Below the pieces are notes generated by a model, which saw only the letters and a program-made list of their open reading frames with translations, was not told where the DNA came from and searched no databases. A DNA stretch of 64,000 nt, from positions 1,240,001 to 1,304,000 of the forward strand of contig NZ_CP007141.1 in assembly GCF_000816145.1 (NCBI RefSeq), read 5' to 3'. Below are positions 14,535 to 62,026 of this stretch, piece after piece. The translations under genes were made by a program, and so were the position numbers. Position 1 is the stretch's first letter. Each line of letters begins with the position of its first letter. This stretch comes from Pseudothermotoga hypogea DSM 11164 = NBRC 106472 (lineage in GTDB: Bacteria > Thermotogota > Thermotogae > Thermotogales > DSM-5069).

Positions 14535-14540
14535 ATTATA
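14535..14540 (-). promoter_or_regulatory. -10 box (TATAAT) of the moaA operon
   Basis: A perfect minus-strand TATAAT ends 10 bases before the moaA ATG, predicting a 3-5 base leader. No good -35 hexamer is seen at 16-18 bases upstream. Confidence 0.5.
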
Positions 14541-45566: not shown

Positions 45567-46064
45567 TCAGTGTTCGTCTGACCGGAGCCATTTTCTCAGA
45601 ACTTCGATCAACTGCGCGACGGGATGATCTTTGGTCTCGTAATAACGAGGAGAAACGTAGATGATCAATTCGGCATCTTCCTTTTCTAAGCATTTTATTC
45701 TGTAGAGGTCGCTGTTCACTTCTGGTTCTCCTATCTGTTGTTGTGCCATGCTGCAAACGTAATTCAAGATCAAGGCCAAATCACTTTCTTCGACTTTGAG
45801 GTACACGGTTCTGGGACCTTCCGGCATCTCACGTGTGAGTGAAGCCACGCGGTTCTCAAAAACGGTCAGAACAGCGTGCCAATGTACAAAACCACCAGAA
45901 TCATATTCGATCGGAAGGACCGCTCTCTCAGTCACACCTTCCTGTGCTTCCAACGTTGCAAAACCGTAGTCTTCTTGAACGAAGCTGGTGCAGAAAAACA
46001 AGTGAGATTGCCCGAATGCCGTGAAACCAAGAAACACGACCAGACAGGCAATCCACTTTGCCAT
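45567..46064 (-). CDS. Exported protein of unknown function
   Basis: 165 residues from ATG 46064, preceded by GGAGGTGA. The signal peptide covers about residues 1-19 (WIACLVVFLGFTAFG). The mature part has short beta segments and a C-terminal domain (ELIIYVSPRYYETKDHPV, LIEVLRKWL). No family is recognised. It may be the last gene of the amidase/epimerase operon, 70 bases after the amidase. Confidence 0.75.
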   Translation of the reverse strand: MAKWIACLVVFLGFTAFGQSHLFFCTSFVQEDYGFATLEAQEGVTERAVLPIEYDSGGFVHWHAVLTVFENRVASLTREMPEGPRTVYLKVEESDLALILNYVCSMAQQQIGEPEVNSDLYRIKCLEKEDAELIIYVSPRYYETKDHPVAQLIEVLRKWLRSDEH

Positions 46065-46134
46065 CTGTTCACCTCCGTGGTCAAAAACTTTGACCCAAGA
46101 AGAACAGGCTTGGTTCATCGGGAAGGTTCAAACT

Positions 46135-47472
46135 TCAAGGTGCCTCCCTCGTCGCGCGCTCGAACGCGTGCGCAATTTGAACAAGCAGATCTTCCCGCCA
46201 CCACTTCGTGACGAATTGGACACCGACTGGTAAGTTGTCCACGCGACCGAACGGTACACTGATAGCTGGAAGATGAGAAATGTTGAACTCGGCTGTGAAG
46301 CGTGTCAAACGCCTTGCCATCTCGACGGCATTTTCGCCCTCAATGAACGGGGCAACGATGGGCACGGTTGGGAGCACCAAAAGATCGTATTGTGAGAAGA
46401 GCTGTTTGAAATTGTGCTTTGTCATCGTTTGAACCTTCCTCGCCTGAGCATAATCGACACCGCTCGTTGAAGCTCCTTCCATGAGTCTCTGTCTGACATC
46501 GTCGGAAAAGAGTTCTGGACGATCTTTCAACCTCTCTCTGTGGAAGGCCGCTGCCTCTGTCTGGGTGATCAAACCGTTGGCCGCCGCTGCGTCCTTGAGC
46601 CATTCCAAAGGTTTCTCCTCGATGACCGCACCAAGTCGCTTCAGCACATGACACGCTTCATCCACGATCTTCAAGATTCTCTCGTCGGCTTTGGAAACAA
46701 AATCACCCGCAACTTTCAGCACCTTTATTCCTTTGGGAAACTTCTCAAAATCGGGCTCTCTGAGCGGTGCTCTCTGAGAGAAAGGATCCTGCACGTCGTG
46801 TTTCGAAATCACTTTCAGCACGATCCAAGCATCCTCGACAGAGTTTGCGATCGGTCCGACGTGATCCAGATGCCAAGAGAGAGGCATTACACCCCTCACG
46901 CTGATCCTACCGTAGGTGGGTTTCAATCCCACGACGCCACACAGTGCCGAGGGAATCCTTATGGAACCGCCGGTGTCCGTGCCGAGCGCTGCCAGTACCG
47001 CGTTTGTGGCGACTGCGACCGCAGAACCTCCAGACGAACCACCCGAGATCCTTTTTGGATCGTGTGGATTTCTACACGGTCCGAAGTGTGGATTGTTGTT
47101 CGTCACACCGAGAGCAATCTCGTGCAGGTTCGTCTTTCCAACGATTATTGCCCCCGCCTTCTTCAATTGTTGTATCACGAAGGCATCATCTTTCGCAAAA
47201 TTATCCTTGAAGAACAGGCTTCCGGCCGTTGTCTTCAAACCCGCAACGTCGATCAGATCTTTCACGGCTATGGGCACTCCGTACAACGGTGGAAGTTTCT
47301 TTGTGAGAGATTTTTCCAATATCTGCACAGTTCTCATCGCTCCATCGTAGTCGAGACTGATGAAGACTCCAAGGTGCTTCGTTTCTTCTATCTTCCTGAA
47401 ACATTCTTCGACGACCTCTCGGGGTCTGATTTTTCTCTGCGCATACAGTTTCAGCAACTCTCTTATTCTCAC
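46135..47472 (-). CDS. Amidase-signature-family amidase
   Basis: About 445 residues. The catalytic Lys lies in VPIAVKDLIDV (near residue 70), and the serines lie in ISGGSSGGSAVAVA and LGTDTGGSIRIPSALCG, making the Ser-cisSer-Lys triad. It is shorter than GatA, and no gatB or gatC is near, so a catabolic amidase is more likely than the tRNA amidotransferase. Start is GTG 47472 (AGGTGA upstream) or GTG 47481, which overlaps the epimerase stop. Context suggests hydrolysis of amide-containing peptides or amidated muropeptides. Confidence 0.85.
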   Translation of the reverse strand: MRIRELLKLYAQRKIRPREVVEECFRKIEETKHLGVFISLDYDGAMRTVQILEKSLTKKLPPLYGVPIAVKDLIDVAGLKTTAGSLFFKDNFAKDDAFVIQQLKKAGAIIVGKTNLHEIALGVTNNNPHFGPCRNPHDPKRISGGSSGGSAVAVATNAVLAALGTDTGGSIRIPSALCGVVGLKPTYGRISVRGVMPLSWHLDHVGPIANSVEDAWIVLKVISKHDVQDPFSQRAPLREPDFEKFPKGIKVLKVAGDFVSKADERILKIVDEACHVLKRLGAVIEEKPLEWLKDAAAANGLITQTEAAAFHRERLKDRPELFSDDVRQRLMEGASTSGVDYAQARKVQTMTKHNFKQLFSQYDLLVLPTVPIVAPFIEGENAVEMARRLTRFTAEFNISHLPAISVPFGRVDNLPVGVQFVTKWWREDLLVQIAHAFERATREAP

Positions 47473-47477
47473 CAAAA

Positions 47478-48509
47478 TCACCTCAGCTTCATCTTTGGAC
47501 CATCCTGGACGAACTTTCCTCTGAAGGAAGGTTCTTCCAGCAACAGATGGCTGTCCAAGTCGTGGAAATCGAAGGCGCCAGTTCCCAGTGCGAATTGAAC
47601 GCTCTGATTGATCCCAAGGCTCGACTCAGCCATGCATCCGATCATCAATTTAATGTTGGAAGCTTTTGCCATTTCGACGATCGCGAGCGCATCGCTGATA
47701 CCACTCTTCATGAGCTTTATGTTGACGTAGTCCACCGCTTCTTCTTTGATCAATCTCAACACGTCGTACTTCCTCTTGGCAGACTCGTCCGCCGCCACGG
47801 GGAAGGGACAGTGGAACCTCACGTACCTGAGCCCCTCGACGTCGTACCAAACCACGGGCTGTTCGTAGACTGCGATGTCCACGCCAGAGCGGTACAGAAC
47901 GTTCGCAAACTCGACAGCCTGCTTGGGCGTGTAACCCATGTTCGCATCGACTATGTAGTCGGCTCCTTTCGTTACTCTCGCGATCTCCAGCATTGCGTCG
48001 ATGTCTTCTTTCAGATTTTCCCCCACCTTTACCTTGATAGTTCTGAAACCCTCTTTGAAGATCTCTTCCGCATCCTTCACTCTGTTCTCAACCGTGTCTA
48101 TGCCCACCGTTTTGTCCGTCTCGATCTCTTCTTTTGCACCACCCAAGAACTCCGCCACGGTTATACCCAGCTCTTCGCACAGCCCATCGAGAACGGCGAA
48201 CTGAACGGCGGCCTTCAAACTTGGCGTCGCCAAGAGCTTATCTGTGATCTCGAAAATCTTTGCGTAGTTGCGCACGTCCAGACCGATCAGATTCTCCCTC
48301 AAAAAGTCTTCCATCGTCAAGAGCATCTCCACTTTCTCGCCGTTGACTCTGAAGGATGGAGATGCCTCACCGCGTGCCACGATGCCGCTGTCCAGGAGCA
48401 ACTCCACATCAACGTTGTTCGCCTCCGTGGATACGCTACCAGTGATGTGGAAAGGTTTTCTGTAAGTGTACTTTTTCAAAATGAGGCGAACATCTTTGAT
48501 CTTTCCCAA
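47478..48509 (-). CDS. L-Ala-D/L-Glu epimerase (dipeptide epimerase)
   Basis: A 343-residue enolase-superfamily enzyme. KPFHITGSVS at the N-terminus, the catalytic KVKVGE lysine (near 164), metal ligands in IVDANMGYT, VYEQP and AADESAK, the second lysine in NIKLMKSG, and LDSHLLLEE all closely match the Thermotoga maritima L-Ala-D/L-Glu epimerase as I recall it. It interconverts L-Ala-D-Glu and L-Ala-L-Glu during murein peptide use. The start is TTG 48509, 7 bases after GGAGGTG. Confidence 0.93.
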   Translation of the reverse strand: MGKIKDVRLILKKYTYRKPFHITGSVSTEANNVDVELLLDSGIVARGEASPSFRVNGEKVEMLLTMEDFLRENLIGLDVRNYAKIFEITDKLLATPSLKAAVQFAVLDGLCEELGITVAEFLGGAKEEIETDKTVGIDTVENRVKDAEEIFKEGFRTIKVKVGENLKEDIDAMLEIARVTKGADYIVDANMGYTPKQAVEFANVLYRSGVDIAVYEQPVVWYDVEGLRYVRFHCPFPVAADESAKRKYDVLRLIKEEAVDYVNIKLMKSGISDALAIVEMAKASNIKLMIGCMAESSLGINQSVQFALGTGAFDFHDLDSHLLLEEPSFRGKFVQDGPKMKLR

Positions 48510-48512
48510 CCT

Positions 48513-49835
48513 TCACACCTCCCAACCTTCAAAGCGCACCACTTCTATGTGTGTTTCGAGGTGCACTTTCTTGTTGTGCGTCTCGGCTTCGCCAAGCTGG
48601 TTGTCCGTGGGATCTTCTCTGTAGAACCTCGGTTCGGGCACGAACTGTTTCATGAAGTCGTCGTTGGCGACCATTCTGAAGCCGTCGAGGTTCCCAAAGT
48701 AAAAGCTGCGGAGTTTCTCATCGTACCTCCTCGCACCACCGAAAGAGGGATCCGCAGGGAGCCATCCGTACGGTTCGACATAAAAGAGCGCCCAATCGTG
48801 TGGCGAGACAAAGTAAGGTGTCACGTACCAACCCGACTGCCATCTCGCAGGAACCTTCGCGATCCTGCACATGGTTATGAACAAGAGCGCTTGAAAGCCA
48901 CAATCACCTCTCAGGTTCTCTGCGACGTATTGGGATATGTTTTCGTAAGTTGAGTAGGGTCTCACGTAAGAATACCTCACCTTAGTCGTGATCCAGTCGT
49001 AAATACGTTTAGCTTTCAGATAAGGGTTCGTTTCGTTGTTCACGATTTGCTGAGTGAGATGTCTTATGTAATGCGTGAAAACTATGTGGGGAGGTTCTTC
49101 ATCCAAGAATTCATCCATGTCGCACGTTTGAACCTCAGAAGGATCTATCTTGTTGATCCACTCTCGAATCTTGTATCCGAATTCTACAACGTATTCCTTG
49201 CTTGTCCCTTCGAAAAAGATCGTTCTCTGTGGAACATCATTGTCCGCCAAGAAATAATTCTCGTCGCTGACGTAGAGCAATTTCACATCCTCTACTTGAA
49301 GACCCTTCTTTGGAAACGGAAGCCAGACTCTGAAGTAGTCATCGTGTGAATCCACTTTCACCTTCAATTTCACTTGTATCGTGTAAGTCTTTGGTGCAGC
49401 CCCTTCGGCTAGCGCCCTTATTCTTCGCTCGATCAACTCTCTGTGTTCTTCTTCCTCCGGATCTCTTTTCATCCTGTTCTTGTACTCTGGCCGAGCGAAA
49501 CCGATGTTCTGAATGAACCTCTCGAAGAACCTTCTCTTTCTGTTGACGAGTATGAAGTCAACACAACCTTCGTCGATGAGTCTGTAGAATTCTTCGTAAT
49601 CGAGATCTCTGATCATTTCTTTTGCTTTTTCCAGAGCGTCCGATTCGTCGTACGGGTATGCAGCGAGCAATCTCTTGATCCTGAACTTTTCGTACTCGAG
49701 TCGCTGCCTTTGTAGATCGCTGATCCGTGTGTCTCTTAACCACCTGTCAATCAACGCCATCGCCGCTTCCCAGTCGCCGATCTCTTCGAACCGTCGCACG
49801 TTCTCAGGAATGCCGCACACCAGGAACTCATGCAC
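48513..49835 (-). CDS. Transglutaminase-like cysteine protease-fold protein
   Basis: About 440 residues. The N-terminal 140 residues are helical (repeat-like, rich in Asp/Glu/Arg), followed by a beta-rich region. A transglutaminase core has Cys in RGDCGFQALLF, His in SPHDWALFYVEP and Asp in PADPSFGG, a complete Cys-His-Asp triad. There is no signal peptide. In this locus it is most likely a peptidase or amidase acting on gamma-glutamyl or murein peptides. GTG 49835 is preferred (GGGGGTG, 6 bases upstream), overlapping the isomerase stop. Confidence 0.85.
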   Translation of the reverse strand: MHEFLVCGIPENVRRFEEIGDWEAAMALIDRWLRDTRISDLQRQRLEYEKFRIKRLLAAYPYDESDALEKAKEMIRDLDYEEFYRLIDEGCVDFILVNRKRRFFERFIQNIGFARPEYKNRMKRDPEEEEHRELIERRIRALAEGAAPKTYTIQVKLKVKVDSHDDYFRVWLPFPKKGLQVEDVKLLYVSDENYFLADNDVPQRTIFFEGTSKEYVVEFGYKIREWINKIDPSEVQTCDMDEFLDEEPPHIVFTHYIRHLTQQIVNNETNPYLKAKRIYDWITTKVRYSYVRPYSTYENISQYVAENLRGDCGFQALLFITMCRIAKVPARWQSGWYVTPYFVSPHDWALFYVEPYGWLPADPSFGGARRYDEKLRSFYFGNLDGFRMVANDDFMKQFVPEPRFYREDPTDNQLGEAETHNKKVHLETHIEVVRFEGWEV

Positions 49836-50700
49836 GTTGAACACCCCCAACATTCGACAAGGCCTTCAACTTTTCTAATGTTTCAGGAATGTCCCTTTCG
49901 AACCTGTTCAAATCGTTTATCTCGAGAACGACTATGCCATCGAATCTTTCACGCACCAGTTCGAACACTCGCTCGAACGGAATTTTTCCAAGTCCTAAAG
50001 GTAAATGTAAATCCCCCACCCCGTACAAGTAAGCGAAATGGAGCTCTCTCGAGAGTGAACTTTCAGCATCGTCTTCTGGTTTTCCAAAATTGTCGTGAAC
50101 GTGCAGTTCGAAAGTATGGGGAAGTCCGAGAGTGAGCTGTTCCAATAACTTTTGCTCGTCCCCTTTCACTCTCAGGAAGAGATGTCCCACATCGATCAAG
50201 AGTTTCACCTGCGGATGGTTCGCGGCTGTAACAATCTGCAAAGTGTGTTCCACCAGCTGTTTGGTGTTCTCAACGACAAGACAGACGTTCGTCCTCTCAA
50301 GTTTGGTGCAGAGTCTTTTCAGATTCTCGATCTCTCTACGTTTTTTCTCTTCGTCTTTACCAAACCAACCGGAGTGATGGACGACCGTCAGCGCGCCTAT
50401 ACTGGAAGCGAAGTCAATGGTCGCCGAGAGGATCTGAAGATCTTCTTTCCTGTCTGAAGTCAGATCCACAGGGTCTGGTCCGTGAACTGTGAACTTCAGA
50501 CTCGAACGCTTCAGAACCTGTGCGATACGGTTCAATCTTTCGGGGACGATCTCACCGTTAAAGATGACATCCAGACCTGCGGGGGGAATCTCGACACAGT
50601 CGAACCCAAGACATTCAAACTTCTCGAGTTCTTCTTTGAATTTCTCTTCTGAACCAGACAGACGCTTCGTGTCGATGTTTATTCCAATCAATCTGACCAC
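49828..50700 (-). CDS. Sugar phosphate isomerase/epimerase-like TIM barrel
   Basis: About 290 residues of the AP-endonuclease-2/xylose-isomerase-like superfamily. Barrel strands and metal ligands are seen in FTVHGPD, LTVVHHSGW, CLVVENTKQ, LLIDVGHL, FELHVHDN and IVVLEIND. It is the first gene of the minus-strand arm. GTG 50700 follows GGTGA; the longer frame upstream lacks support. The substrate is unknown; a sugar linked to a muropeptide is possible. Confidence 0.82.
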   Translation of the reverse strand: MVRLIGINIDTKRLSGSEEKFKEELEKFECLGFDCVEIPPAGLDVIFNGEIVPERLNRIAQVLKRSSLKFTVHGPDPVDLTSDRKEDLQILSATIDFASSIGALTVVHHSGWFGKDEEKKRREIENLKRLCTKLERTNVCLVVENTKQLVEHTLQIVTAANHPQVKLLIDVGHLFLRVKGDEQKLLEQLTLGLPHTFELHVHDNFGKPEDDAESSLSRELHFAYLYGVGDLHLPLGLGKIPFERVFELVRERFDGIVVLEINDLNRFERDIPETLEKLKALSNVGGVQRA

Positions 50701-50747
50701 ACTGTCACCTTCGTCTTTTGTAATTTTTCGAAACAGTCTGTAATGGA

Positions 50748-50783
50748 TTGACACCAATCGTAACCTTTGCTATAGTTATTATA
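50748..50783. promoter_or_regulatory. Interlocked divergent promoters of the peptide-salvage island
   Basis: On the plus strand TTGACA (50748-50753), a 17-base spacer and TATAGT (50771-50776) form a near-consensus promoter for the ABC operon, with a leader of about 134 bases. On the minus strand TATAAT (50783-50778) serves the isomerase operon with a leader near 70 bases. The two -10 boxes are one base apart. Confidence 0.7.
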
Positions 50784-50917
50784 GATGGCTTCATAGACCT
50801 CAGAGAAAAAGTACCGTCCACCACTTGAACCTTTGGGTGTCTGTTAAGATATCCTGTCGTTCCTTGAACTTGGTCTGATCTTTCAGTCTTATTCTATCTC
50901 TAAAAGGAGGGATTTGT

Positions 50918-52498
50918 GTGAGAAGGTTGCTCTTCGTGGTACTGTTGTGCGCAGCGGTCTTGCTCTTCGCAAGCGTTGAGGACAGCATCGTTCAAGTGGG
51001 ACGCACGCTCGAGAAGAACGGAATCAACGAGGTACGTTACGCGGTATGGGGCACTGGAGATCCCAACAGCGTGCTCAGGGTTCTGGGTATCGTTGAGGCG
51101 GCGAGGCGCATCAACGACATCTGGGCTAAGAACAACATCAACGTCAAGGTGATCATCAGAGAGACGCGTTACGAACTGGACTTCACGCAGATGTATCAGG
51201 AATTTTTGAGCAAGCAACCTCTTGGAACTGCTGGTGATTTTCTGGTGAACTCGTACGTGTACATCGCACCGCTCGCCGAAGAAGGTTATCTGCTCGATCT
51301 GACGCCGTACCTCGAGAAACACAAAGAGCTCCTCGATGACTTCTTTGCCTCTCACATCGAAGTGGCCAAGTACAAAGGAAGGATCTACGGCCTGCCACAG
51401 GACACCGAGGCGAGACCCTTCTACATCAGGAAAGACATCGCAGCCAAGGTTGGACTCGACCTGCACGGCTTGGACCAGAAGGTCTTGAAAGGTGAGTTCA
51501 CCTGGTTCGATGTCTACGAGTGGGCGAAGAAGACTGTTCAGTTGGGAGCCTCGCAGTGGGGTCTGATTCACAGAAGAGGAAGCGCACATCCTGACCTGAT
51601 GCAGTTCATACTCGCCTTTGGAAGCAAACTGTACGATCCTGCAGATGGGAAGCTCGTATTCGACAAAGAAGCGATCTACAAGTGGCTCACGATCGAGTGG
51701 GTCTTTGCGAGAGAGAAACTGCTTCCGTCCGACATGATGGCTTGGGATTGGGCAAAGCAGGTTCATCCGGCCATAGTTGATGGAAAGACTCTGTTCGACA
51801 TCGGTGGGACTTGGTACTGGACAGAGTGGCAAACCAAGGATTACTACACCGATCCGAAGACCGGGCAGATGAGGGGATTGAAACCCGAAGAGGTCGAGCA
51901 GTGGTTCTACTACACGCTGTTCCCGGCGGGAGAACCTGGAAAGAAACCCGTGACGCTGAGCCAGCCGTTCATGTGGATGGTCAGTTCGAAGGCCGGCGCG
52001 CAGAACCCCAAGTACAGCGCTCTGAAGTCCACCTACGATGAACTCGCTTTCCTGATCGTCGCTAAGGCGTCCGATCCAGAGATCAACGCCATACACAGCA
52101 TCATAAGTGCGCACTTGCCAGTTGGAAAAGCTTCGGCCGCGTTGCTCGCCAACAAAGAATGGCTCGACAAACTGTACAACCTCCAAATCGACCTCGATCC
52201 GAGCGTGAAAGAGAAGATCGCTGGCATCGTCAAAGCGACTGTCAATCCAATCAACGCAAAATTCTTGTCCGATGTTTCCTACATGCTCGATCACACCAAC
52301 TTCCCGCCGATACACCCGATGTACGCGAAGCTTGCGGCGATCTTCGCAGAGGTGGTCGACTACGTGTTGAGAGGTCAGATGGATCCGGCCAAAGCGATCG
52401 ACTACGCCATTGGTAAAATCAACGCGGATCTCGATCTCAAGGCCAGCGTGAAGATCATCAACGAGATACCGAAAGATTGGAGATTTGCTGGTAAATGA
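50918..52498 (+). CDS. ABC transporter extracellular solute-binding protein (family 1)
   Basis: A 526-residue binding protein, longer than most family 1 members, with signal peptide (RLLFVVLLCAAVLLFAS). Landmarks include IYGLPQDTEARPFYIRKD, TWFDVYEWAK and a C-terminal NADLDLKASVKI. GTG 50918 is preceded by AAGGAGGG. Sugar-type binding proteins of this size can bind oligosaccharides or glycopeptides; the downstream peptidases favour a muropeptide or glycopeptide ligand. Confidence 0.88.
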   Translation: MRRLLFVVLLCAAVLLFASVEDSIVQVGRTLEKNGINEVRYAVWGTGDPNSVLRVLGIVEAARRINDIWAKNNINVKVIIRETRYELDFTQMYQEFLSKQPLGTAGDFLVNSYVYIAPLAEEGYLLDLTPYLEKHKELLDDFFASHIEVAKYKGRIYGLPQDTEARPFYIRKDIAAKVGLDLHGLDQKVLKGEFTWFDVYEWAKKTVQLGASQWGLIHRRGSAHPDLMQFILAFGSKLYDPADGKLVFDKEAIYKWLTIEWVFAREKLLPSDMMAWDWAKQVHPAIVDGKTLFDIGGTWYWTEWQTKDYYTDPKTGQMRGLKPEEVEQWFYYTLFPAGEPGKKPVTLSQPFMWMVSSKAGAQNPKYSALKSTYDELAFLIVAKASDPEINAIHSIISAHLPVGKASAALLANKEWLDKLYNLQIDLDPSVKEKIAGIVKATVNPINAKFLSDVSYMLDHTNFPPIHPMYAKLAAIFAEVVDYVLRGQMDPAKAIDYAIGKINADLDLKASVKIINEIPKDWRFAGK

Positions 52499-53442
52499 CC
52501 AAGGAAAGATACTCAAGAAAGTGGGAGCTGTGGGCCTTCTTGGCCCCGGCTCTCGTTGTTGTGGTGATATTCTACGTCGTACCGCTCATCTTGACTGTAT
52601 ACACCAGCTTCACCCCTCTCAGAAACTGGAACATACAACGTTACGCGACGAGACTGATTGGTTTTTACAACTATCAGAAATTGTTCCACGCCATAGCGAA
52701 CGATCCGTCGGTGAGGGCGGTCTTTTTGACGACCGCAGTTTTCGTCGGTTGCACGTTGCTTGTGAACGTGCTCGGCGGTTTGATCTTAGCTTTGCTCACC
52801 TTTTTCGTTGATAAAAGGACGAACTCTATCGCGAGCACGATCTGGTTGTTACCAAGAATGTCACCCATCGCGGTGTACGGACTGGTCTGGTACTATTTCT
52901 TCCATGGCAGCAGTGTGGGCACTTTGAATTCCCTCTTTTTGAAACTCGGTTTCATCGACAAACCCGTCGCTTGGGGTCAGGCCTTCATTCCCTATGGTCC
53001 GTGGAGCGTGATCATCTTCGTCAACGGGCTGGTGGGTGTGAGTTTCGGAATGATCGTGCTCTCTTCGGCCATCAAGAGCATTCCGAGCGAGTTCGTCATC
53101 GCTGCGAGGGTCGATGGTGCGACGGACTGGCAGATCTGCAGGAGGGTTTTGATACCTCAAATCAAATGGCACATCATGTACGTCACCACATGGCAATTGC
53201 TGAGTCTGCTCACTTCTTACGCGCACACGTACCTTCTGGTGAGCTGGAGATTGGTGAACAAGTCTTACGGAACCCCCTGGGCTCTATATGTGTACGATCT
53301 TGCGTTCACAGGTGTGTTCGACCAAGGATTGGCGGCCGCGGCGGGAACCCTTCTGGTCCTGGTGGGAGGACTGCTCGGTCTGATGACGCTCAGAATACTG
53401 GGCTTTGGAAAGCTCATGACGGAGCCGCGTGGTGATATCTGA
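52495..53442 (+). CDS. ABC transporter permease (MalF type)
   Basis: A 315-residue permease with six helices and EAA loop VIAARVDGATDWQICRRVLIP (near residue 200). The ATG overlaps the binding-protein stop (ATGA), and the gene overlaps the next permease by one base. Confidence 0.9.
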   Translation: MTKERYSRKWELWAFLAPALVVVVIFYVVPLILTVYTSFTPLRNWNIQRYATRLIGFYNYQKLFHAIANDPSVRAVFLTTAVFVGCTLLVNVLGGLILALLTFFVDKRTNSIASTIWLLPRMSPIAVYGLVWYYFFHGSSVGTLNSLFLKLGFIDKPVAWGQAFIPYGPWSVIIFVNGLVGVSFGMIVLSSAIKSIPSEFVIAARVDGATDWQICRRVLIPQIKWHIMYVTTWQLLSLLTSYAHTYLLVSWRLVNKSYGTPWALYVYDLAFTGVFDQGLAAAAGTLLVLVGGLLGLMTLRILGFGKLMTEPRGDI

Positions 53443-54317
53443 TGAGTCTGGGCGATGTGGAAGTTCGAAGCAAGAGCAGACAGATCTTTTATTCCATCAT
53501 TCTAATAGCCTTCTCCGTGCCGGTGATCATGGCCTTTTCCATGCTCGTTCTTTCGAGCTTCGCAAACCAGATGGTGACGAACTTCGACTTTTCCAAGGTG
53601 AGATTCACGCTTAAGAACTGGCAACTTTTGTTTCAGGGCAGGATCGCCATAACTGGAGGGCTGAGGGAGAACATATTCCTCTACTTAATCAGCACGGCGA
53701 TCGTCGCACTCGGAGTGGCCATCGTCACCACGCTCGTTGGGACTCTTTCTGGCTATGCGATCTCAAGGATCAGGTTCAAAGGGAGAAAGTTCGTACTCTT
53801 GATGATGCTCATGTTGCACGCTCTGCCCGGTTCGATCCTCATCGTCGGAGTCTACTTTCTCTACAGGCTGTGGATGCCGACGAGTCTCAACGCGCTCCGA
53901 TATTTTTCTTTCTTCTATGTCATCATCGCCCGCGCCGCACTCGAAGTTCCACTCTCAGTGTGGCTCATGAAGGGCTTTTTCGATCTGCTGCCCTGGGAGA
54001 TAGAGTGGTCCGCGCTGGTCGATGGTGCTTCGAGACTCAAGACTTGGGCGAAGATCATGATGCCCTTGATAAAACCCGGTGTGGTGGCTATACTGATCTT
54101 TGGTTTTCTCGCTGGCTGGCAGGACATCATCTATGTCAGAACGTTTCTCATAGACAAGACGCTCGCAACCTTCATCGAATCGAATCTGGAAGCTGAGATG
54201 GCTTACATGCCTCTGCTCGCCGCTGCAGCCACGCTTTATCTTTTACCCACGATCTTCTTCTACATAAGTTCTCAGAAGCTTCTGTTCAAAGTCTACGCGG
54301 GTGGCATCAGGAGGTGA
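53442..54317 (+). CDS. ABC transporter permease (MalG type)
   Basis: A 291-residue permease with EAA loop EWSALVDGASRLKTWAKIMMP (near residue 190). It starts with TGATG coupling to the upstream permease and pairs with it in the membrane. Confidence 0.9.
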   Translation: MSLGDVEVRSKSRQIFYSIILIAFSVPVIMAFSMLVLSSFANQMVTNFDFSKVRFTLKNWQLLFQGRIAITGGLRENIFLYLISTAIVALGVAIVTTLVGTLSGYAISRIRFKGRKFVLLMMLMLHALPGSILIVGVYFLYRLWMPTSLNALRYFSFFYVIIARAALEVPLSVWLMKGFFDLLPWEIEWSALVDGASRLKTWAKIMMPLIKPGVVAILIFGFLAGWQDIIYVRTFLIDKTLATFIESNLEAEMAYMPLLAAAATLYLLPTIFFYISSQKLLFKVYAGGIRR

Positions 54318-54323
54318 AGGGTC

Positions 54324-55406
54324 TTGGCATCCATCGTGCTCGAGAACATCACGAAGAAGTTCGGCAAGGTTACGGCGCTCGATGGGGTGAATTTACAGAT
54401 AGACGACGGCGAGTTCATCGTGTTGCTCGGTCCATCGGGTAGCGGCAAAACCACGTTGATGTACCTGATCGCAGGCATCTACAGACCAACTTCTGGACGC
54501 ATCCTCTTCGACGGAAGGGACGTGACGAACCTGTCTCCAAAGGAGAGAAATGTGGGCCTGGTCTTTCAAAACTGGGCGCTCTATCCTCACATGAAGGTGT
54601 TCGACAACATAGCCTTCCCTCTGACCTTGAAGAAGACTGACAGAAACACGATCCAACAAAGGGTTCACGAAGTGGCAAGCATGCTCAAAATAGAAGCCCT
54701 CCTTGAGAGATACCCCTGGCAGTTGAGCGGTGGGCAACAACAACGTGTCGCCATTGCGAGAGCATTGGTGAAGCAACCTCAGATCCTTCTGTTCGATGAG
54801 CCGCTGAGCAACCTCGACGCGCTTTTGAGAATCGGTGTCAGGACGGAACTGAAAAGGTTACAGAAAGATTTGAAGATCACCTCGGTCTACGTCACGCACG
54901 ATCAAGCTGAAGCTTTGGCGATCGCAGACAGAATTGCAGTGATAAACAATGGAAAACTGATTCAAGTGGGCACACCGGAGGAAATTTATTACAAACCGAG
55001 ACACACGTTCGTGGCCGGCTTTGTGGGAAATCCACCCGCGAACCTCTTGAACGTTGAGTTCGATGGAACGAAATTGACGATACAGACTAAAACTTTCCAG
55101 GCCCCGGTCGAATTGCTGCAGAAGATCTCTGGCAGAAGAAGGATCGTTCTGGGCTTCAGGCCAGAGAAGGGAATCTTACTTGATCGCATCACAGAGAACG
55201 CCGTCGGTATCGAGGTACAGATTTACGAGGTCGAATCCATGGGAAGAGAACAAATCGTGACCGTTTCTATAGAACAGACGATGGTGAAAGTGCTGAGGCC
55301 CTCCGAAGAAAAGTTCCAGGTGGGTCAAAGGCTGTTTTTGTGTGTTGATATAAAAGATTTGATGCTTTTCGATTTCGACACGAACGAAGCGCTCGATGTT
55401 CAGTGA
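54324..55406 (+). CDS. ABC transporter ATP-binding protein (MsmK/UgpC type)
   Basis: A 360-residue ATPase. Walker A is GPSGSGKTTL (about residues 37-46), the Q-loop is VFQNWALYPHM, the signature LSGGQQQRVA, Walker B ILLFDEPLSNLD, and a C-terminal TOBE/OB domain follows GFRPEKGI. It energises this importer and could also serve the ATPase-less importer at 21956-24911. The start is TTG 54324 behind AGGTGA. Confidence 0.92.
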   Translation: MASIVLENITKKFGKVTALDGVNLQIDDGEFIVLLGPSGSGKTTLMYLIAGIYRPTSGRILFDGRDVTNLSPKERNVGLVFQNWALYPHMKVFDNIAFPLTLKKTDRNTIQQRVHEVASMLKIEALLERYPWQLSGGQQQRVAIARALVKQPQILLFDEPLSNLDALLRIGVRTELKRLQKDLKITSVYVTHDQAEALAIADRIAVINNGKLIQVGTPEEIYYKPRHTFVAGFVGNPPANLLNVEFDGTKLTIQTKTFQAPVELLQKISGRRRIVLGFRPEKGILLDRITENAVGIEVQIYEVESMGREQIVTVSIEQTMVKVLRPSEEKFQVGQRLFLCVDIKDLMLFDFDTNEALDVQ

Positions 55407-55427
55407 GTTTTGAGTTAACATATAACC

Positions 55428-56132
55428 GTGAGACCGATCGTGGGCATCAGCTGTTCGATGGATGAAGAGTCTTTAAAACTCAACATGAACTATTACCAAG
55501 CCGTCGAGGAAGCCGGTGGTTTGCCCATCCTCGTACCGATCCTCAAAGAGCAAGATAACCTGTACCAGTTGGCCAATCTTCTGGACGGAATGATCTTTTC
55601 CGGTGGAGTGGACATCGATCCTCACCACTACAACGAAGAGCCACACCTAGGTTTGGGACAGATAACACCAGAGAGAGACGAACTGGAAATAACGCTGTGC
55701 AGAATCCTCTACGAAATGAAAAGGCCCATCTTCGGCATCTGTAGAGGTATTCAGTTGATCAACGTTGCGCTCGGTGGAACACTCTATCAAGACATAAAGA
55801 CACAATTACCTAAGGTCCTGAAACACTACCAAGAAGCCCCAGCCCACAGTCCAACGCACGAGGTGTCCATCGAAAAGGACAGCTTGTTGTTCTCCATTGT
55901 GAAGAGGGAAAGTTTGAGAGTCAACAGTTTCCACCATCAGGCTGTGAAAGATGTCGCGGCAGCCTTGAGAATCGTTGCGAGGGCACAGGATGGCGTCGTC
56001 GAGGCGGTGGAATCCAACAACGACAGATTTGTCCTGGCAGTCCAGTGGCATCCAGAAAGAATGTTCAAACGACACAGAGAACACTTCGAACTGTTCAGGC
56101 GTTTCGTTGAAGAATGTGCAAAGAAGGGGTGA
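55428..56132 (+). CDS. Gamma-glutamyl hydrolase, peptidase C26 (PuuD-like)
   Basis: A 234-residue class I glutamine-amidotransferase-like hydrolase. The catalytic Cys lies in FGICRGIQL (near residue 105), with His and Glu in VQWHPERM (near 205). It has the FSGGVDIDPHHY motif of PuuD-type gamma-glutamyl-GABA hydrolases. In this operon it likely cleaves gamma-glutamyl bonds of imported peptides. GTG 55428 has no clear ribosome site. Confidence 0.87.
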   Translation: MRPIVGISCSMDEESLKLNMNYYQAVEEAGGLPILVPILKEQDNLYQLANLLDGMIFSGGVDIDPHHYNEEPHLGLGQITPERDELEITLCRILYEMKRPIFGICRGIQLINVALGGTLYQDIKTQLPKVLKHYQEAPAHSPTHEVSIEKDSLLFSIVKRESLRVNSFHHQAVKDVAAALRIVARAQDGVVEAVESNNDRFVLAVQWHPERMFKRHREHFELFRRFVEECAKKG

Positions 56133-56138
56133 TCGAAC

Positions 56139-56957
56139 GTGAAGATCTACATTTCTGCCGACATGGAGGGTATCTCCGGCGTTGTGGGGCTGGGTCACGT
56201 TTCACCTGGAGATAAAGAGTATGAGAGGTTCAGAAAACTGATGACTCGTGAGGTGAACGCAGTCGTAGAGGCAGCGGTCCAATGTGGAGCGAAGCAAGTT
56301 CTGATCAACGATTCTCACAACACGATGGACAACATCTTGATTGAAGAATTGCATCCTAAGGCTGTGCTCATCAGCGGTAGTCCAAAGCCCATGAGCATGA
56401 TGGAAGGCATAGATGAGAGTTTCGATGCCGTTTTCTTTGTGGGTTACCACGCAAGGGCAGGAAGCGCGCCCGCAATCATGGACCACACTTACACTGGAAG
56501 AGTCTTCTGTGTTGAGGTGAATGGAAAGAAATTGAGCGAAGCTGGATTGAACGCGAGGATCGCAGGTTGTTTCAACGTTCCCGTCGCGCTCGTGACGGGA
56601 GATCAACTCACCATAGAGTGTGCTAAACAGGAACTGAACGATTTCGTCGGTGTGATCGTCAAAGAAGCCGTCGGAAGGTACGCAGCGAAGATCTATCCGT
56701 TCGAGGTTGTGGAAGAAAAGTTGAAGGCTGGCGTCGAAGAAGCGATGCGCAGATTGAAAGAGTTCAAGCCAACGGTCGAGCGAGAGCCTGTGGAAGTGAA
56801 ACTCACCTTCTACAGTTCTGCTTTTGCTGAGACTGCTTCACTTCTTCCGAACGTTGAGCGACTCGACGCCAGAACCATCCGATACACGGCCAAAAATTAT
56901 CTGGAAGCTTACAGATTGCTCAGAGTCTGTCTCTCACTCTCTTCCCTGGCCAAATAG
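56139..56957 (+). CDS. dppA: D-aminopeptidase, M55 family (DppA)
   Basis: A 272-residue zinc peptidase of the DppA type. SADMEGISG begins the fold (Asp and Glu zinc ligands near residues 8-10), followed by VLINDSHNTMDN, VGYHARAG and the HTY segment. DppA removes D-amino acids from D-Ala-D-Ala and related peptides. The start is GTG 56139 behind GGGGTGA. Its 3' end overlaps the convergent padR gene by 24 bases. Confidence 0.92.
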   Translation: MKIYISADMEGISGVVGLGHVSPGDKEYERFRKLMTREVNAVVEAAVQCGAKQVLINDSHNTMDNILIEELHPKAVLISGSPKPMSMMEGIDESFDAVFFVGYHARAGSAPAIMDHTYTGRVFCVEVNGKKLSEAGLNARIAGCFNVPVALVTGDQLTIECAKQELNDFVGVIVKEAVGRYAAKIYPFEVVEEKLKAGVEEAMRRLKEFKPTVEREPVEVKLTFYSSAFAETASLLPNVERLDARTIRYTAKNYLEAYRLLRVCLSLSSLAK

Positions 56958-57305
56958 TTGCTCGTACCTTTTGAAAAACTCTTCGAGCAAATTCTTTTGA
57001 AATCTCAGTCTGTCTGCCAGGAAAGAAAGTCTCTGTTTGCCATCCTCGGTGATCCTGTACATTCTCCTGGCGGGTCCCCCACCGAGCACGTCCCATTCGG
57101 ACTGCACCAAACCTTCAGCCTCGAGACGCGCGAGCAACCTGTAGAGATTCCCCATGGGACCCACGCCTTCGAATCCCACGCCGAGCTCGCTCAACTTCTT
57201 GGCGATTTCGTAGCCATGAGCTGGTTCTTCTGCGATCAAGAGGAGCACGAGGGCCTCAAGAAAATGGCCCCCGCGCCCCATTCCGTGACCGTGACAGTGT
57301 CTCAC
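56934..57305 (-). CDS. PadR-family transcriptional regulator
   Basis: A 123-residue winged-helix protein: ALVLLLIAEEPAHGYEIAKKL, NLYRLLARLEAEGLV and GPARRMYRITEDGKQRL are typical PadR. The N-terminus is rich in His and Cys (HCHGHGMGRGGH), a possible metal-binding extension. GTG 57305 overlaps the stop of the small upstream gene. It probably represses its own operon and perhaps the nearby exporter. Confidence 0.9.
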   Translation of the reverse strand: MRHCHGHGMGRGGHFLEALVLLLIAEEPAHGYEIAKKLSELGVGFEGVGPMGNLYRLLARLEAEGLVQSEWDVLGGGPARRMYRITEDGKQRLSFLADRLRFQKNLLEEFFKRYEQLFGQGRE

Positions 57306-57924: not shown

Positions 57925-57958
57925 GATAATATATTGACGTCTAAATGTTTGACGTCAA
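57925..57958 (+). promoter_or_regulatory. MarR-type operator and -10 box of the exporter operon
   Basis: GATAAT (57925-57930) is the likely -10. TTGACGTC (57934-57941) and GACGTCAA (57951-57958) form a perfect inverted repeat over the predicted start site, and the right arm is itself the palindrome TTGACGTCAA. This fits autorepression by the MarR protein encoded 17 bases on. Confidence 0.7.
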
Positions 57959-57974
57959 TCGGAAGGGTGACAGC

Positions 57975-58418
57975 ATGAACGAGGACACCATCTTGAAGAG
58001 ATTCTTCGTGATCCAAAGATTGCACTTTCACATCCTCCACAGAGAGTTGGAAAAGCACGGCATTCATCCGGGTCAACCACCGATGATCATGATCATCTCA
58101 AAACATGAAGGCATGACACAGAACCAGATCGCCGAGAAACTGAACCTGAGGCCTGCGACGGTCGCGATCATGCTGAGGAGGATGGAGAAGGCAGGACTGA
58201 TACACAGAAAGCAGGATGAGAATGACAGAAGGATTCAGAGGGTTTATTTGACGGAAAAAGGAAGATCTCACTGCGAGTTCTTGAAAGAGCAGATGCAGAG
58301 AATGGAAAGCATAGCCACGCAGGGATTCAGCGAGGAAGAAAAGCTCCAACTCACAAACTTTTTGGACAGGATCATCCACAATCTCAAGAATCATACGAGA
58401 GGTGATTCGGATGATTAA
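57975..58418 (+). CDS. MarR-family transcriptional regulator
   Basis: 147 residues from ATG 57975, preceded by AAGGGTG. The winged helix is clear: MTQNQIAEKLNLRPATVAIMLRRMEKAGLI followed by the DENDRRIQRVYLTEKG wing. It probably represses the exporter genes until a ligand binds. It overlaps the first exporter gene by 8 bases. Confidence 0.92.
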   Translation: MNEDTILKRFFVIQRLHFHILHRELEKHGIHPGQPPMIMIISKHEGMTQNQIAEKLNLRPATVAIMLRRMEKAGLIHRKQDENDRRIQRVYLTEKGRSHCEFLKEQMQRMESIATQGFSEEEKLQLTNFLDRIIHNLKNHTRGDSDD

Positions 58419-60159
58419 GATCCTGAAGTATCTGAAGCCCTATCTGTGGTTGGTGATCGTGACGGTCTCGCTGGTCATCGTCGATTCGTACGTGACGCTG
58501 TACTTACCGGATCTCATGTCACAAATTGTGGACAAGGGAATCACGAAAGGCAATGTGGACTACATATGGCAGATTGGTGGCAAGATGCTGCTCGTCTCTC
58601 TGATCCAAGTTGTCGCGATCGTAGTGATGAGTTACACATCCTCCAGAGCGGCGATGTGTGCCGGCAGAGATATTCGGGCCGATCTTTTCAAGAAAATCCA
58701 AAGTTTCTCACTCGCGGAGATCGACAAATTCAGTACGGCCTCTCTGATAACCCGAACGACCAACGATATAACCCAGATACAACAGGCGCTCGTCATGATC
58801 CAAAGAATGGTGATAAGGGCTCCCATCGTCGCGGTTGGGAGCATCTTCATGGCGATTTCGAAGAACGCCAAACTCACCATGATACTGTTGATTTCTGTTC
58901 CTTTAGCTTCGCTTGCGCTCTATCTGATCTTTTCAAAGGTCATGCCTCTGTTCAAGAGCATGCAGAAGAAGATCGACCGACTCAACCTCGTTCTGAGAGA
59001 AAGGGTCACGGGAATTCGAGTGATCAGGGCGTTCAACAAGGAAGAGTACGAGAAAAACAGGTTTGAAGAAGCGAACCTGGATTTGACGCGCACGGCACTG
59101 AAAGTGAACAGAATAGGAGCCATCGTCTTTCCGATCATGACCATCATCATGAACTTCACGATCGTTGCCTTGATATGGTTCGGGGCCAAACAGATAGACG
59201 CTGGACAGCTCCAAGTCGGTGGCATGATGGCCGTCATGCAGTACGTCATGCAAGTGTTGTTCTCGTTCATCATGATATCGCTCATATTCGTCTTTTTACC
59301 CCGCGCTTCGGTTTCTGCACAGAGGGTTCTCGAAGTGCTCGCAACCGAACCGTCCGTGAGGGAACCAGAACAGTTCGAAGAACCCGCAGGTGAAGGTGTG
59401 GTGCAGTTCGAGAACGTGACGTTCCACTATCCAGGAGCGAAGGAACCAGCGCTCAGAAACGTTTCCTTCATCGCAAAACCCGGACAGGTGACAGCAATCA
59501 TTGGGAACACAGGCTCTGGAAAGACCACGATTCTCAATCTCATAATGAGGTTCTACGATGTCACTGAAGGTTCCGTCAAGATCGATGGAGTGGACGTCAG
59601 AAAGATACCTTTCGAAAAGCTGAGAAAGATGATAGGCTATGCGCCACAAAGGCCGATCATTTTCTCAGGTACGATCGCTGAAAATATAAGGTTCGGTCGA
59701 AGGGAAATCACCGATGATGACATCTTCAAAGCTGCCGATATTGCACAGGTGAACGAGTTCGCTTTGAAGTTGCCTGAAGGACTCAACGCCCAGGTCGCGC
59801 AGGGTGGGACGAACCTGTCCGGTGGGCAAAAGCAGAGGATCTCGATAGCGCGCGCGATTGCGGGAAAGCACAAAATCTATCTTTTCGACGACACTTTCTC
59901 AGCTGTCGATTTCAGAACGGACGCGAAGATCCGTGCGAGGCTCATGAAGGAATTGAAGGATGCGACCGTGATAATCGTCGCACAGAGAGTGGCCACGATC
60001 ATGCATGCCGATCAAATCGTGGTGTTGAAGGATGGCAGGGTGGAAGGCATAGGCAGGCACGAGGAACTCATGAGAAGTTGTTTGGTGTACAGAGATATCG
60101 TGTTCTCACAGATCTCTGAGGAGGAAGCAACGATCGGAGGTGGACTCAATGGCAGATGA
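58411..60159 (+). CDS. Heterodimeric ABC exporter subunit with degenerate Walker B (TM287-like)
   Basis: About 582 residues: six membrane helices, then an ATPase domain with Walker A GNTGSGKTT (near 370), signature LSGGQKQRI and Walker B IYLFDDTFSAVD. The catalytic Glu after Walker B is Asp, as in the degenerate site of Thermotoga TM287. It pairs with the following gene to form a multidrug- or lipid-type exporter under MarR control. ATG 58411 follows AGGTG by 6 bases. Confidence 0.92.
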   Translation: MIKILKYLKPYLWLVIVTVSLVIVDSYVTLYLPDLMSQIVDKGITKGNVDYIWQIGGKMLLVSLIQVVAIVVMSYTSSRAAMCAGRDIRADLFKKIQSFSLAEIDKFSTASLITRTTNDITQIQQALVMIQRMVIRAPIVAVGSIFMAISKNAKLTMILLISVPLASLALYLIFSKVMPLFKSMQKKIDRLNLVLRERVTGIRVIRAFNKEEYEKNRFEEANLDLTRTALKVNRIGAIVFPIMTIIMNFTIVALIWFGAKQIDAGQLQVGGMMAVMQYVMQVLFSFIMISLIFVFLPRASVSAQRVLEVLATEPSVREPEQFEEPAGEGVVQFENVTFHYPGAKEPALRNVSFIAKPGQVTAIIGNTGSGKTTILNLIMRFYDVTEGSVKIDGVDVRKIPFEKLRKMIGYAPQRPIIFSGTIAENIRFGRREITDDDIFKAADIAQVNEFALKLPEGLNAQVAQGGTNLSGGQKQRISIARAIAGKHKIYLFDDTFSAVDFRTDAKIRARLMKELKDATVIIVAQRVATIMHADQIVVLKDGRVEGIGRHEELMRSCLVYRDIVFSQISEEEATIGGGLNGR

Positions 60160-62026
60160 AAAAAAGCCAGCCCAACCAACGAGACTGCCGATGAGAAGAC
60201 CGGGTCCGGGTGGTCCCCCAATAGGCATACCCGCGGAGAAAGCCAAGGACTTCAAGGGAACTCTGAGGAGATTGATCGCTTATCTCAGGCCCTATCTCGT
60301 GCCCATGATCATAGTTCTGGGTCTCACGATCACCGCAACAGTCTTGACGATAATCGCACCGAAGATTCTCGGAAGGGCAACGACCGAGATCTTTCGCGGC
60401 GTGATGGCGAAGATGTTCAGACTCCCCAACGCGAAGATAGATTTTTCGTACGTGGCGAAGATACTCATTCAGGTGGGCACAATCTATTCTCTGAGCGGTT
60501 TACTCATGTATCTGCAGCAGTTCATCATGGCGGGAGTCACTCAGAAGATCGTGATGAAGATGAGAAAGGACGTCTCTGAAAAGCTCGCGAGATTGCCCTT
60601 GAAATTCTACGATTCTCGAACTCACGGTGAAATTTTGAGCCGGGTGATAAACGATATAGATCTGATCAGCAATACGCTGCAACAGAGTCTCGTTCAGTTC
60701 GTCTCTGGGATAGTCTCCGTGGCGGGTGTCACGATCATGATGCTCACGATAAGTCCTCTGCTCACGGGTGTTACGGTACTCACATTGCCGTTGAGCATCG
60801 TCACGACGATCTTCATCGCGAAACATTCGCAAAGGTTCTTCTCCAGACAGCAGAAGAAGCTTGGAGAACTGAGTGGGCACGTGGAGGAAGTTTATGCCGG
60901 TCACATCGTTGTGAAGGCCTACTGCAGAGAGAAGGATATCACCGAGAAGTTCGAAGGGATAAACGAGCAACTCTGCGATGCGAGCCACAAGGCACAGTTT
61001 CTGTCTGGCATGATCATGCCGTTGATGCGGTTCATAGGCAATCTGGGTTATGTGATCGTCTCGGTGGTGGGAGGTATCCTCGTCACGAGGAGGGCCATAA
61101 CCATAGGCGACGTTCAAGCCTTCATACAGTACTCTCAACAGTTCACGCAACCCATCGTGCAGATCTCAAACATCGTCAACCTCATTCAATCGACGATTGC
61201 GGCCGCTGAGAGGGTTTTCGAAATACTCGATGAAGAGGAAGAAAAGCCCGAAAAGCCCGACGCGCTGAGAATCGAAAAGGTGAAGGGGGACGTCAGATTT
61301 GAGAACGTGCACTTCAGCTACGTGCCAGAGAAACCGCTCATAGAGGATCTGAACATAGAAGTCTTCAGTGGCCAAAGGATCGCGATCGTTGGTCCAACGG
61401 GTGCCGGGAAGACGACGTTGGTCAATCTGTTGATGCGGTTCTACGAAATACAGAAAGGAAGCATCAAGCTCGATGGGATAGACATCAGAGACATACACAA
61501 GAACAATCTGAGAAAATGTTTCGGCATGGTTCTGCAGGATACGTGGCTTTTCAACGGCACGATAAGGGAAAACATTGCGTACGGAAAGGAGAACGCCACA
61601 GAAGAGGAAATAATACAGGCTGCGAAAATGGCACAGGCGCACCACTTCATCATGGCTCTGCCGGATGGCTACGACACCGTGATCAACGAAGAGGCGACGA
61701 ACATATCCTACGGCGAAAAGCAGCTCATAACCATCGCGAGGGCGTTCTTAGCCAACCCAGACGTGCTCATACTGGACGAGGCCACAAGTAACGTCGACAC
61801 GCTCACCGAGATATACATTCAGAAGGCGATGGACGAGCTGATGAAGGGAAGAACCTGCTTCATCATAGCCCACAGACTTTCAACGATAAAGAACGCCGAT
61901 CTCATCCTGGTCATGAACGAAGGAAAAATCATAGAGAGGGGCACGCACAAAGAGTTGCTCGCGAACGGAGGTTTCTACGCACAGCTTTACAGAAGTCAGT
62001 TCCTCGGTGCGCTCGTGGAGGTGTAA
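60149..62026 (+). CDS. Heterodimeric ABC exporter subunit with consensus Walker B (TM288-like)
   Basis: About 625 residues. A Pro/Arg-rich N-terminal tail (MRRPGPGG) precedes six membrane helices and an ATPase domain with Walker A GPTGAGKTT, Walker B LILDEATSNVD and the unusual signature ISYGEKQ in place of LSGGQ. A consensus catalytic Glu combined with a divergent signature is what the partner of a degenerate subunit should show. ATG 60149 follows GGAGGTGG and overlaps the previous gene by 11 bases. Confidence 0.92.
   Translation: MADEKKPAQPTRLPMRRPGPGGPPIGIPAEKAKDFKGTLRRLIAYLRPYLVPMIIVLGLTITATVLTIIAPKILGRATTEIFRGVMAKMFRLPNAKIDFSYVAKILIQVGTIYSLSGLLMYLQQFIMAGVTQKIVMKMRKDVSEKLARLPLKFYDSRTHGEILSRVINDIDLISNTLQQSLVQFVSGIVSVAGVTIMMLTISPLLTGVTVLTLPLSIVTTIFIAKHSQRFFSRQQKKLGELSGHVEEVYAGHIVVKAYCREKDITEKFEGINEQLCDASHKAQFLSGMIMPLMRFIGNLGYVIVSVVGGILVTRRAITIGDVQAFIQYSQQFTQPIVQISNIVNLIQSTIAAAERVFEILDEEEEKPEKPDALRIEKVKGDVRFENVHFSYVPEKPLIEDLNIEVFSGQRIAIVGPTGAGKTTLVNLLMRFYEIQKGSIKLDGIDIRDIHKNNLRKCFGMVLQDTWLFNGTIRENIAYGKENATEEEIIQAAKMAQAHHFIMALPDGYDTVINEEATNISYGEKQLITIARAFLANPDVLILDEATSNVDTLTEIYIQKAMDELMKGRTCFIIAHRLSTIKNADLILVMNEGKIIERGTHKELLANGGFYAQLYRSQFLGALVEV

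Follow-up and report, generated by a model that had tools for sequence, protein, structure and literature searches.

In the window, a stretch of 64,000 nucleotides covering positions 1,240,001-1,304,000 of the complete 2,165,416-base genome of Pseudothermotoga hypogea DSM 11164 = NBRC 106472, an island of eleven genes encodes a cysteine hydrolase with a transglutaminase core (hereafter TG) and, directly downstream, a dipeptide epimerase. As the best explanation on the whole, which we hold at a probability of roughly 55%, we propose that TG acts in the breakdown of stem peptides of imported muropeptides, paired with the epimerase. The proposal builds on the identities of the genes, an intact catalytic triad, a confidently modelled fold, the linkage and co-occurrence of both genes, and the murein-recycling genes found beside TG in other lineages. 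Since the TG gene repeatedly adjoins genes for the dismantling of cell-wall peptides, the protein probably represents an unrecognised step of cell-wall recycling, as far as gene sequence and gene order can tell. Muropeptide or D-peptide catabolism is its likely setting. The two genes are:

48513-49853, minus strand: transglutaminase-core cysteine hydrolase, TG (PF01841, 76.9 bits against a cut-off of 23)
47478-48509, minus strand: dipeptide epimerase of the enolase superfamily, TM0006 type (NF041118, 599.4 bits against a cut-off of 500)

The Cys-His-Asp triad of TG (C318, H352, D368) is invariant in 40 homologues from Thermotogota and also in an alignment of 73 sequences that includes Firmicutes and archaea, and all 73 homologues match PF01841. 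Judged by hydropathy only, no hydrophobic N-terminal signal was seen in TG, nor in the epimerase, amidase, TIM-barrel, C26 and DppA-type proteins of the island; this agrees with an earlier reading of the same DNA from its letters alone (the sequence-only reading), in which TG had been called a cytoplasmic protein with an intact triad. The AlphaFold model obtained from the 73-sequence alignment (predicted local distance difference test, pLDDT, 95.3; predicted TM-score, pTM, 0.94) consists of a helical N-terminal region, a beta region, the transglutaminase core and a conserved C-terminal arm with the invariant charged or polar residues R393, D414, D417, Q419 and E422. R375, D390 and R412 are conserved as well. 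Profile searches found Transglut_core as the only domain of TG, and neither NlpC/P60 (PF00877) nor Peptidase_M14. No specific NCBIfam family covers the protein, and 13 of the 73 homologues match weakly a model of a transglutaminase-related lipoprotein. Among solved structures, Foldseek ranked 3isr nearest (TM-score by query 0.44), followed by TgpA and TglA, with PeiP far weaker at rank 27.

The TG family is a widespread, unnamed group of cytoplasmic papain-like cysteine hydrolases built on a transglutaminase core. At least 551 matches occur in GTDB genomes, and those listed include Clostridia, Enterococcaceae, Elusimicrobiota, WOR-3, Thermoproteota, Thermoplasmatota and Asgard archaea; a 94% identical protein occurs in a Pseudothermotoga genome (L071). 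A quick tree separates a Firmicutes-type clade from a Thermotogota/archaeal clade, and the epimerase-linked proteins of Enterococcus, Vagococcus and Lachnospiraceae type form a deep clade apart from those of Thermotogaceae. The TG of Thermoanaerobacter wiegelii (L073:7998-10366) nests among the Thermotogota sequences and has a 69% identical epimerase directly behind it, thus the pair has apparently moved between phyla together.

The linkage of the two genes was followed by fetching up to 20 kb around TG from 40 other Thermotogota genomes and searching these loci with each protein of the window. In 28 of the 40 loci the next gene after TG, on the same strand, is the epimerase, with gaps of -53 to +31 nt that are mostly within 16 nt; the distance is 3 nt in Thermotoga maritima (L040), and in L063 a 33% identical epimerase stands beside TG in convergent orientation. 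As for co-occurrence among 103 Thermotogota genomes, both genes were found in 71, TG only in one, the epimerase only in 11 and neither in 20 (Fisher P=1.5e-12, relatedness not corrected), so that 71 of the 72 genomes with TG also have the epimerase. The pair is kept in T. maritima-type genomes, in which NlpC/P60 above the cut-off, S66, M14 and DppA were not found. The amidase is found behind the epimerase only in the family to which the window belongs (as a conserved neighbour in L031-L038), the TIM barrel and the importer accompany the pair in the window's genus and in L035, and C26 and DppA are present at the TG locus only in that genus. A comparison of gene neighbourhoods had been named earlier as the check on the island; it bears out the linkage of TG and epimerase, and the refuting outcome named with it, a lack of such linkage in relatives, applies to the remaining genes. 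Conservation of the whole island is therefore rejected, the TG-epimerase link being the only one of those tested that is broadly conserved. At one locus (G041:C13:32157-34521) the TG frame has 11 internal stops and the epimerase is in two pieces, possibly a joint natural loss. The T. maritima genome has an array of clustered regularly interspaced short palindromic repeats (CRISPR; L040:1016-3106) with about 30 copies of the repeat GTTTCAATAMTTCCTTAGAGGTATGGAAAC near the TG-epimerase-helicase run.

In several other lineages the neighbours of TG are the gene company of murein stem-peptide degradation. Enterococcus (L124, L132), Vagococcus (L147), Frisingicoccus (L138) and another Lachnospiraceae genome (L128) show an independent association, in which TG stands behind an epimerase of 33-38% identity and genes of an Opp-type peptide importer lie in the same run. 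In Mesoaciditogales the operon of L051 reads Opp - NamZ - TG - OppA - GH3 (NagZ-type) - beta-lactamase-fold hydrolase (PF00144) - AnmK - GntR - kinase - NlpC/P60, and the similar TG operons of L049 and L084 hold NamZ and/or GH3, the beta-lactamase-fold hydrolase, AnmK, a kinase, Opp and NlpC/P60. Further orders are DapF - DppA - LdcA - TG (L085/L054), Opp - NlpC/P60 - TG - LysA-like decarboxylase (L120; the decarboxylase, with 288.9 bits, narrowly misses the lysA cut-off of 297.9), Asp/Glu racemase - TG - Opp (L067) and, in [Clostridium] symbiosum and a relative (L119, L135), Opp - PALP - TG - DppA - PALP - M19. The TG-linked epimerase of Blautia (L133) carries the YkfB motif TPFKTALRTV including Arg24. 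In genomes where TG stands elsewhere or is missing, the epimerase can have NlpC/P60 and LysA beside it (L153, L154, L191), and L153 has in addition AnmK and NAGidase, its LysA being above the cut-off. In the window's genome the only NlpC/P60 gene (L152:7281-8585, G000:C1 ~987,000) is located inside an Opp-type importer operon away from the island.

The epimerase of the island matches PDB 2zad/3deq-3dfy with E=2e-164, and its motifs KVKVG (159-163) and NIKLMKSG (263-270), aligned with YkfB, hold the two lysines that are catalytic in the superfamily (PMC5808125). The NCBIfam name of the NF041118 family is L-Ala-D/L-Glu epimerase, as against the aromatic specificity reported for TM0006. A second epimerase paralogue, 53% identical, is present in the window's genome (L151:8189-10233; G000:C1 ~2,044,189-2,046,233), with a DUF1611 gene in front of it and an overlap of 4 nt between the two. 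Their arrangement resembles that of DgcN-DgcA for N-acyl-D-glutamate.

A place for TG before the epimerase has precedents. In Bacillus subtilis the NlpC/P60 enzyme YkfC cuts the stem tripeptide and YkfB inverts the dipeptide, and in Escherichia coli the unrelated metallopeptidase MpaA performs the first step (PMC2954226); the slot before the dipeptide epimerase has thus been filled by unrelated folds before. Since classical members of the superfamily attack gamma-glutamyl amides, many members are hydrolases, and T. maritima-type genomes keep TG and epimerase although NlpC/P60 above the cut-off, S66, M14 and DppA were not found in them, gamma-D-glutamyl hydrolysis is the reaction we tentatively favour, with the substrate, the bond cut and hydrolysis rather than transfer each a prediction. 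C318, activated by H352 and D368, would attack the gamma-carboxamide of a D-Glu residue, a gamma-glutamyl amide like those on which transglutaminases act. Hydrolysis of the acyl-enzyme would yield a free diamino acid (lysine or diaminopimelic acid) and an L-Ala-D-Xaa dipeptide, which the epimerase would invert to an L,L-dipeptide usable by ordinary dipeptidases; further D- and gamma-linked fragments may fall to DppA and C26. It is possible, though doubtful, that TG constitutes, after the NlpC/P60 enzyme YkfC and the metallopeptidase MpaA, a third unrelated fold for cytoplasmic cleavage of the gamma-D-glutamyl bond in murein stem peptides, distributed over Thermotogota, Firmicutes and several archaeal phyla, and the only such enzyme left in T. 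maritima.

Several observations weigh against the proposal. The arginine of YkfB (Arg24) that presumably binds the Glu side chain is not kept in the window's epimerase, which has Ser25 at this position; this would fit the aromatic preference reported for the T. maritima enzyme. L-Ala-D/L-Phe, -Tyr and -His are reported as substrates on which that enzyme is highly active (PMC5808125), and a wide range of dipeptides, including those with hydrophobic C-terminal residues, is likewise reported for it (PMC13338154); L-Ala-D/L-Glu is therefore doubtful as the natural substrate. The earlier name of L-Ala-D/L-Glu epimerase consequently holds for the family and the catalytic lysines, and is questionable for the glutamate. 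TG and NlpC/P60 occur in one operon in five loci (L049, L051, L120, L133, L142), which weakens the idea of TG as a simple replacement of NlpC/P60; TG would thus not simply stand in for YkfC and may cut a different bond. Beyond the Thermotogota, the strict same-strand run around TG contains no tested marker gene in 51 of 64 loci, and no epimerase was detected at the cut-off used in 12 of 36 genomes with TG. Moreover, TG is carried by archaea that have no murein, and nothing was found in the open-licence literature on the biochemistry of TG or on a role of it in peptidoglycan recycling. Both TG and a dipeptide epimerase, not adjacent, are found in the murein-less archaea of L179-L184 and of L087, L091, L099, L107 and L110.

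TG and the epimerase might alternatively serve a general scavenging of peptides with D-residues or of L-Ala-Xaa peptides that are not specifically derived from murein, TG releasing dipeptides with hydrophobic or aromatic C-terminal residues that the epimerase then inverts. The reported specificity of the T. maritima enzyme and Ser25 speak for such a role, and so does the joint presence of both genes in murein-less archaea; in Thermoplasmatota the epimerase occurs in 3 of 3 genomes with TG and in 32 of 191 others (Fisher P=0.005, from few and related genomes). We nevertheless regard it as rather unlikely, given that TG shares operons with NamZ, AnmK, NagZ-type GH3, LdcA and LysA-like genes in several lineages and that the linked epimerase of Blautia has retained Arg24. 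Among the steps of muropeptide breakdown, TG could also split the sugar from the stem peptide as a cytoplasmic N-acetylmuramoyl-L-alanine amidase. Transglutaminase folds of the peptide:N-glycanase (PNGase) type split a sugar-peptide amide, and in L051 TG lies between NamZ and NagZ-type genes. The same operons, however, hold the PF00144 hydrolase, which resembles AmiE of B. subtilis, an enzyme that already performs this very step, and linkage to a dipeptide epimerase does not call for an amidase, so that this activity appears improbable. Still less probable is the deamidation of D-isoglutamine, in which TG would remove the alpha-amide at position 2 ahead of the epimerase. Transglutaminase-like folds are known to deamidate glutamine side chains, and the enolase-superfamily mechanism requires a free alpha-carboxylate in the substrate of the epimerase. 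None of the 103 Thermotogota genomes contains MurT_C (PF08353), which marks the enzyme that makes D-isoglutamine, the control being detected in Corynebacterium and Lactococcus; this weakens the deamidase, although scavenged foreign peptides could still be its substrates. The participation of TG and epimerase in muropeptide breakdown is thus the reading that we retain.

As for the island itself, all eleven genes named by the sequence-only reading are present with correct coordinates, and profile models confirm their families. They form two divergent operons. The minus-strand operon runs in the order TIM barrel, TG, epimerase, amidase and small unmatched protein, with a 26 nt overlap (TIM/TG), a 3 nt gap, a 4 nt overlap and a 16 nt gap at its junctions; the plus-strand operon (50918-56957) comprises the binding protein, two permeases, the ATPase, C26 and DppA, with overlaps of 4 and 1 nt followed by gaps of 6, 21 and 6 nt. 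The nine genes besides TG and epimerase are:

45567-46118, minus strand: small protein, last gene of its operon, with a hydrophobic N-terminal stretch (hydropathy)
46135-47481, minus strand: amidase-signature hydrolase (PF01425, 362 bits)
49828-50757, minus strand: xylose-isomerase-like TIM barrel (PF01261, AP_endonuc_2, 118.6 bits)
50918-52498, plus strand: solute-binding protein (SBP_bac_1) of a carbohydrate-type ATP-binding cassette (ABC) importer (PF01547, 57.2 bits)
52495-53442, plus strand: ABC permease 1 (BPD_transp_1, PF00528)
53442-54317, plus strand: ABC permease 2, MalG-like (BPD_transp_1, PF00528, 32.5 bits; PRK10998, 66.6 bits, below cut-off)
54324-55406, plus strand: ABC ATPase with TOBE domain, UgpC/MalK-like (PF00005 and PF08402, TOBE_2; UgpC model 405.7, below its cut-off of 432)
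55428-56132, plus strand: C26 gamma-glutamyl hydrolase family protein (PF07722, Peptidase_C26, 241.5 bits; motifs GICRG and QWHPE)
56139-56957, plus strand: M55 (DppA-type) aminopeptidase (PF04951, Peptidase_M55, 353.6 bits)

The small protein has no Pfam or NCBIfam match and no match in neighbouring genera, and is not conserved at the locus. By hydropathy only, a hydrophobic N-terminal signal is present in the binding protein. In the intergenic region between the operons the alignment, which is poor beyond the closest relatives, showed no readable conserved palindrome that might serve as a shared operator. The plus-strand operon is closed off by a PadR gene (56934-57305, minus strand), and an ordinary efflux-type operon adjoins the island, with a MarR regulator followed by two ABC exporter half-transporters (57945-62026), a PadR gene being located just upstream.

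The island is not one conserved unit but a mosaic of three modules: the TG-epimerase core, the importer with the TIM barrel, and the C26-DppA pair. A complete sugar-type ABC importer had been predicted, and all of its parts (SBP_bac_1, two BPD_transp_1 permeases, ABC_tran/TOBE_2 ATPase) were indeed found. In T. maritima (L173, a genome whose epimerase has the same starting sequence as PDB 2zad) a row of homologues of the binding protein (162 bits), the permeases (169 and 175), the ATPase (364) and the TIM barrel (218; 13866-14780) stands behind genes that read like an inositol pathway, and InoEFGK is the assigned inositol transporter of this organism (PMC3750489). This part-by-part homology and the InoEFGK assignment make an inositol- or polyol-type module the best reading of importer and TIM barrel, a carbohydrate module which probably became a neighbour of TG and epimerase. 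We lean slightly towards its being functionally separate from the pair, which is compatible with the role proposed for TG, although an identity of about 35% in the binding protein does not fix the ligand, and in the window's genus the TIM gene runs in the direction of TG and shares 26 nt with it. Close relatives of the binding protein were found only within the family. The TIM barrel itself is confirmed by PF01261 (CbiR model 61.5 bits, below the cut-off of 105), and the isomerase earlier seen in it is only one possibility.

The sequence-only reading had gone further and regarded the whole island as one set for the import and dismantling of muropeptides or gamma-glutamyl peptides, with the ABC importer bringing in the muropeptides. 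Importer and TIM-TG-epimerase-amidase indeed remain neighbours in two genera (the window's and that of L035); a carbohydrate-type ABC importer with ROK and SIS genes is found downstream of TG in L108, another one is in one operon with the epimerase in L155, and a TIM barrel follows epimerase, DppA and racemase in L161. We nonetheless consider a single system unlikely, as importer parts and TIM barrel match the T. maritima inositol-type cluster one for one, the TG-epimerase pair of most relatives has no sugar importer, the importer where present being usually of Opp type, and C26 and DppA constitute a separate pair that keeps company with other genes elsewhere in the family. From the muropeptide idea, the TG-epimerase core remains, with DppA as a plausible addition, whereas importer and TIM barrel are unsupported.

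The C26-DppA pair recurs elsewhere in the family (L166, L167, L171, L175) beside genes that read as TRAP transporter or amidohydrolase. In L166, L167 and L175 it lies near a TAXI-type TRAP transporter, amidohydrolase and agmatinase-like genes, possibly a cluster for the utilisation of D-amino-acid peptides. The metal-binding set of DppA (D8, E10, H60, H104, E134) is present; its score with NF058634, the NCBIfam DppA equivalog, is 249 bits, below the cut-off of 430, and C26 scores 132.6 bits with the PuuD equivalog (gamma-glutamyl-gamma-aminobutyrate hydrolase), below the cut-off of 266. Since DppA homologues adjoin NlpC/P60 (L168, L169, L170) or an epimerase (L161), DppA belongs to the same general network as TG and epimerase. 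In another Thermotogota genome (L161:8264-11621) epimerase, DppA, Asp/Glu racemase and a xylose-isomerase-like TIM barrel stand in one run, and the TIM barrel may after all act in D-peptide metabolism.

What is new here is that a broad and unnamed family, that of TG, likely takes part in a known pathway, and the suspicion that TG is a non-standard part with a possibly new activity has proved the best portion of the earlier finding. As this family, for which there is no close solved structure, recurs in complete murein-recycling operons, a step of muropeptide breakdown has probably gone unannotated in many gut Firmicutes and thermophiles. For the TM0006 epimerase, crystal structures and measured activity are available, yet the dipeptides it reportedly favours do not suit murein, and a conserved partner offers a direct handle on its physiological role. 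If the proposal is true, the archaeal TG would imply that murein-less cells eat bacterial cell-wall peptides.

Among known systems, 3isr (a putative cysteine protease of Cytophaga hutchinsonii), TgpA and TglA are like TG transglutaminase-core structures, but their TM-scores by query do not exceed 0.44, 3isr is uncharacterised and the TgpA structure is that of a periplasmic domain. The pseudomurein endoisopeptidases PeiW and PeiP are likewise transglutaminase-like cysteine hydrolases, which cleave an isopeptide bond within a polymer of the cell wall (PMC4592898); they differ from TG as phage- or prophage-encoded wall-lysis enzymes of methanogens with very low overall similarity. InoEFGK and the TIM-barrel gene that follows it share gene types and order with the binding protein, permeases, ATPase and TIM barrel of the window, except for the low identity of the binding proteins and the divergent orientation of the TIM-barrel gene in the window. 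TM0006 (PDB 2zad, 3deq, 3der, 3des, 3dfy) is a 72% identical orthologue of the window's epimerase and the same kind of enzyme. MpaA, an M14 metallopeptidase to which TG is unrelated, acts with the epimerase YcjG in E. coli at the step before the dipeptide epimerase. A further parallel is YkfC, a papain-type cysteine hydrolase encoded, like TG, beside a dipeptide epimerase and peptide-importer genes, the B. subtilis protein having no signal peptide. TG differs from it in matching no NlpC/P60 model, in its transglutaminase core and own N-terminal helical region, and in that no SH3b was detected. The order epimerase-TG-oppA in Enterococcus mirrors the order ykfB-ykfC-oppA of B. cereus (PMC2954226), with TG in the place of YkfC.

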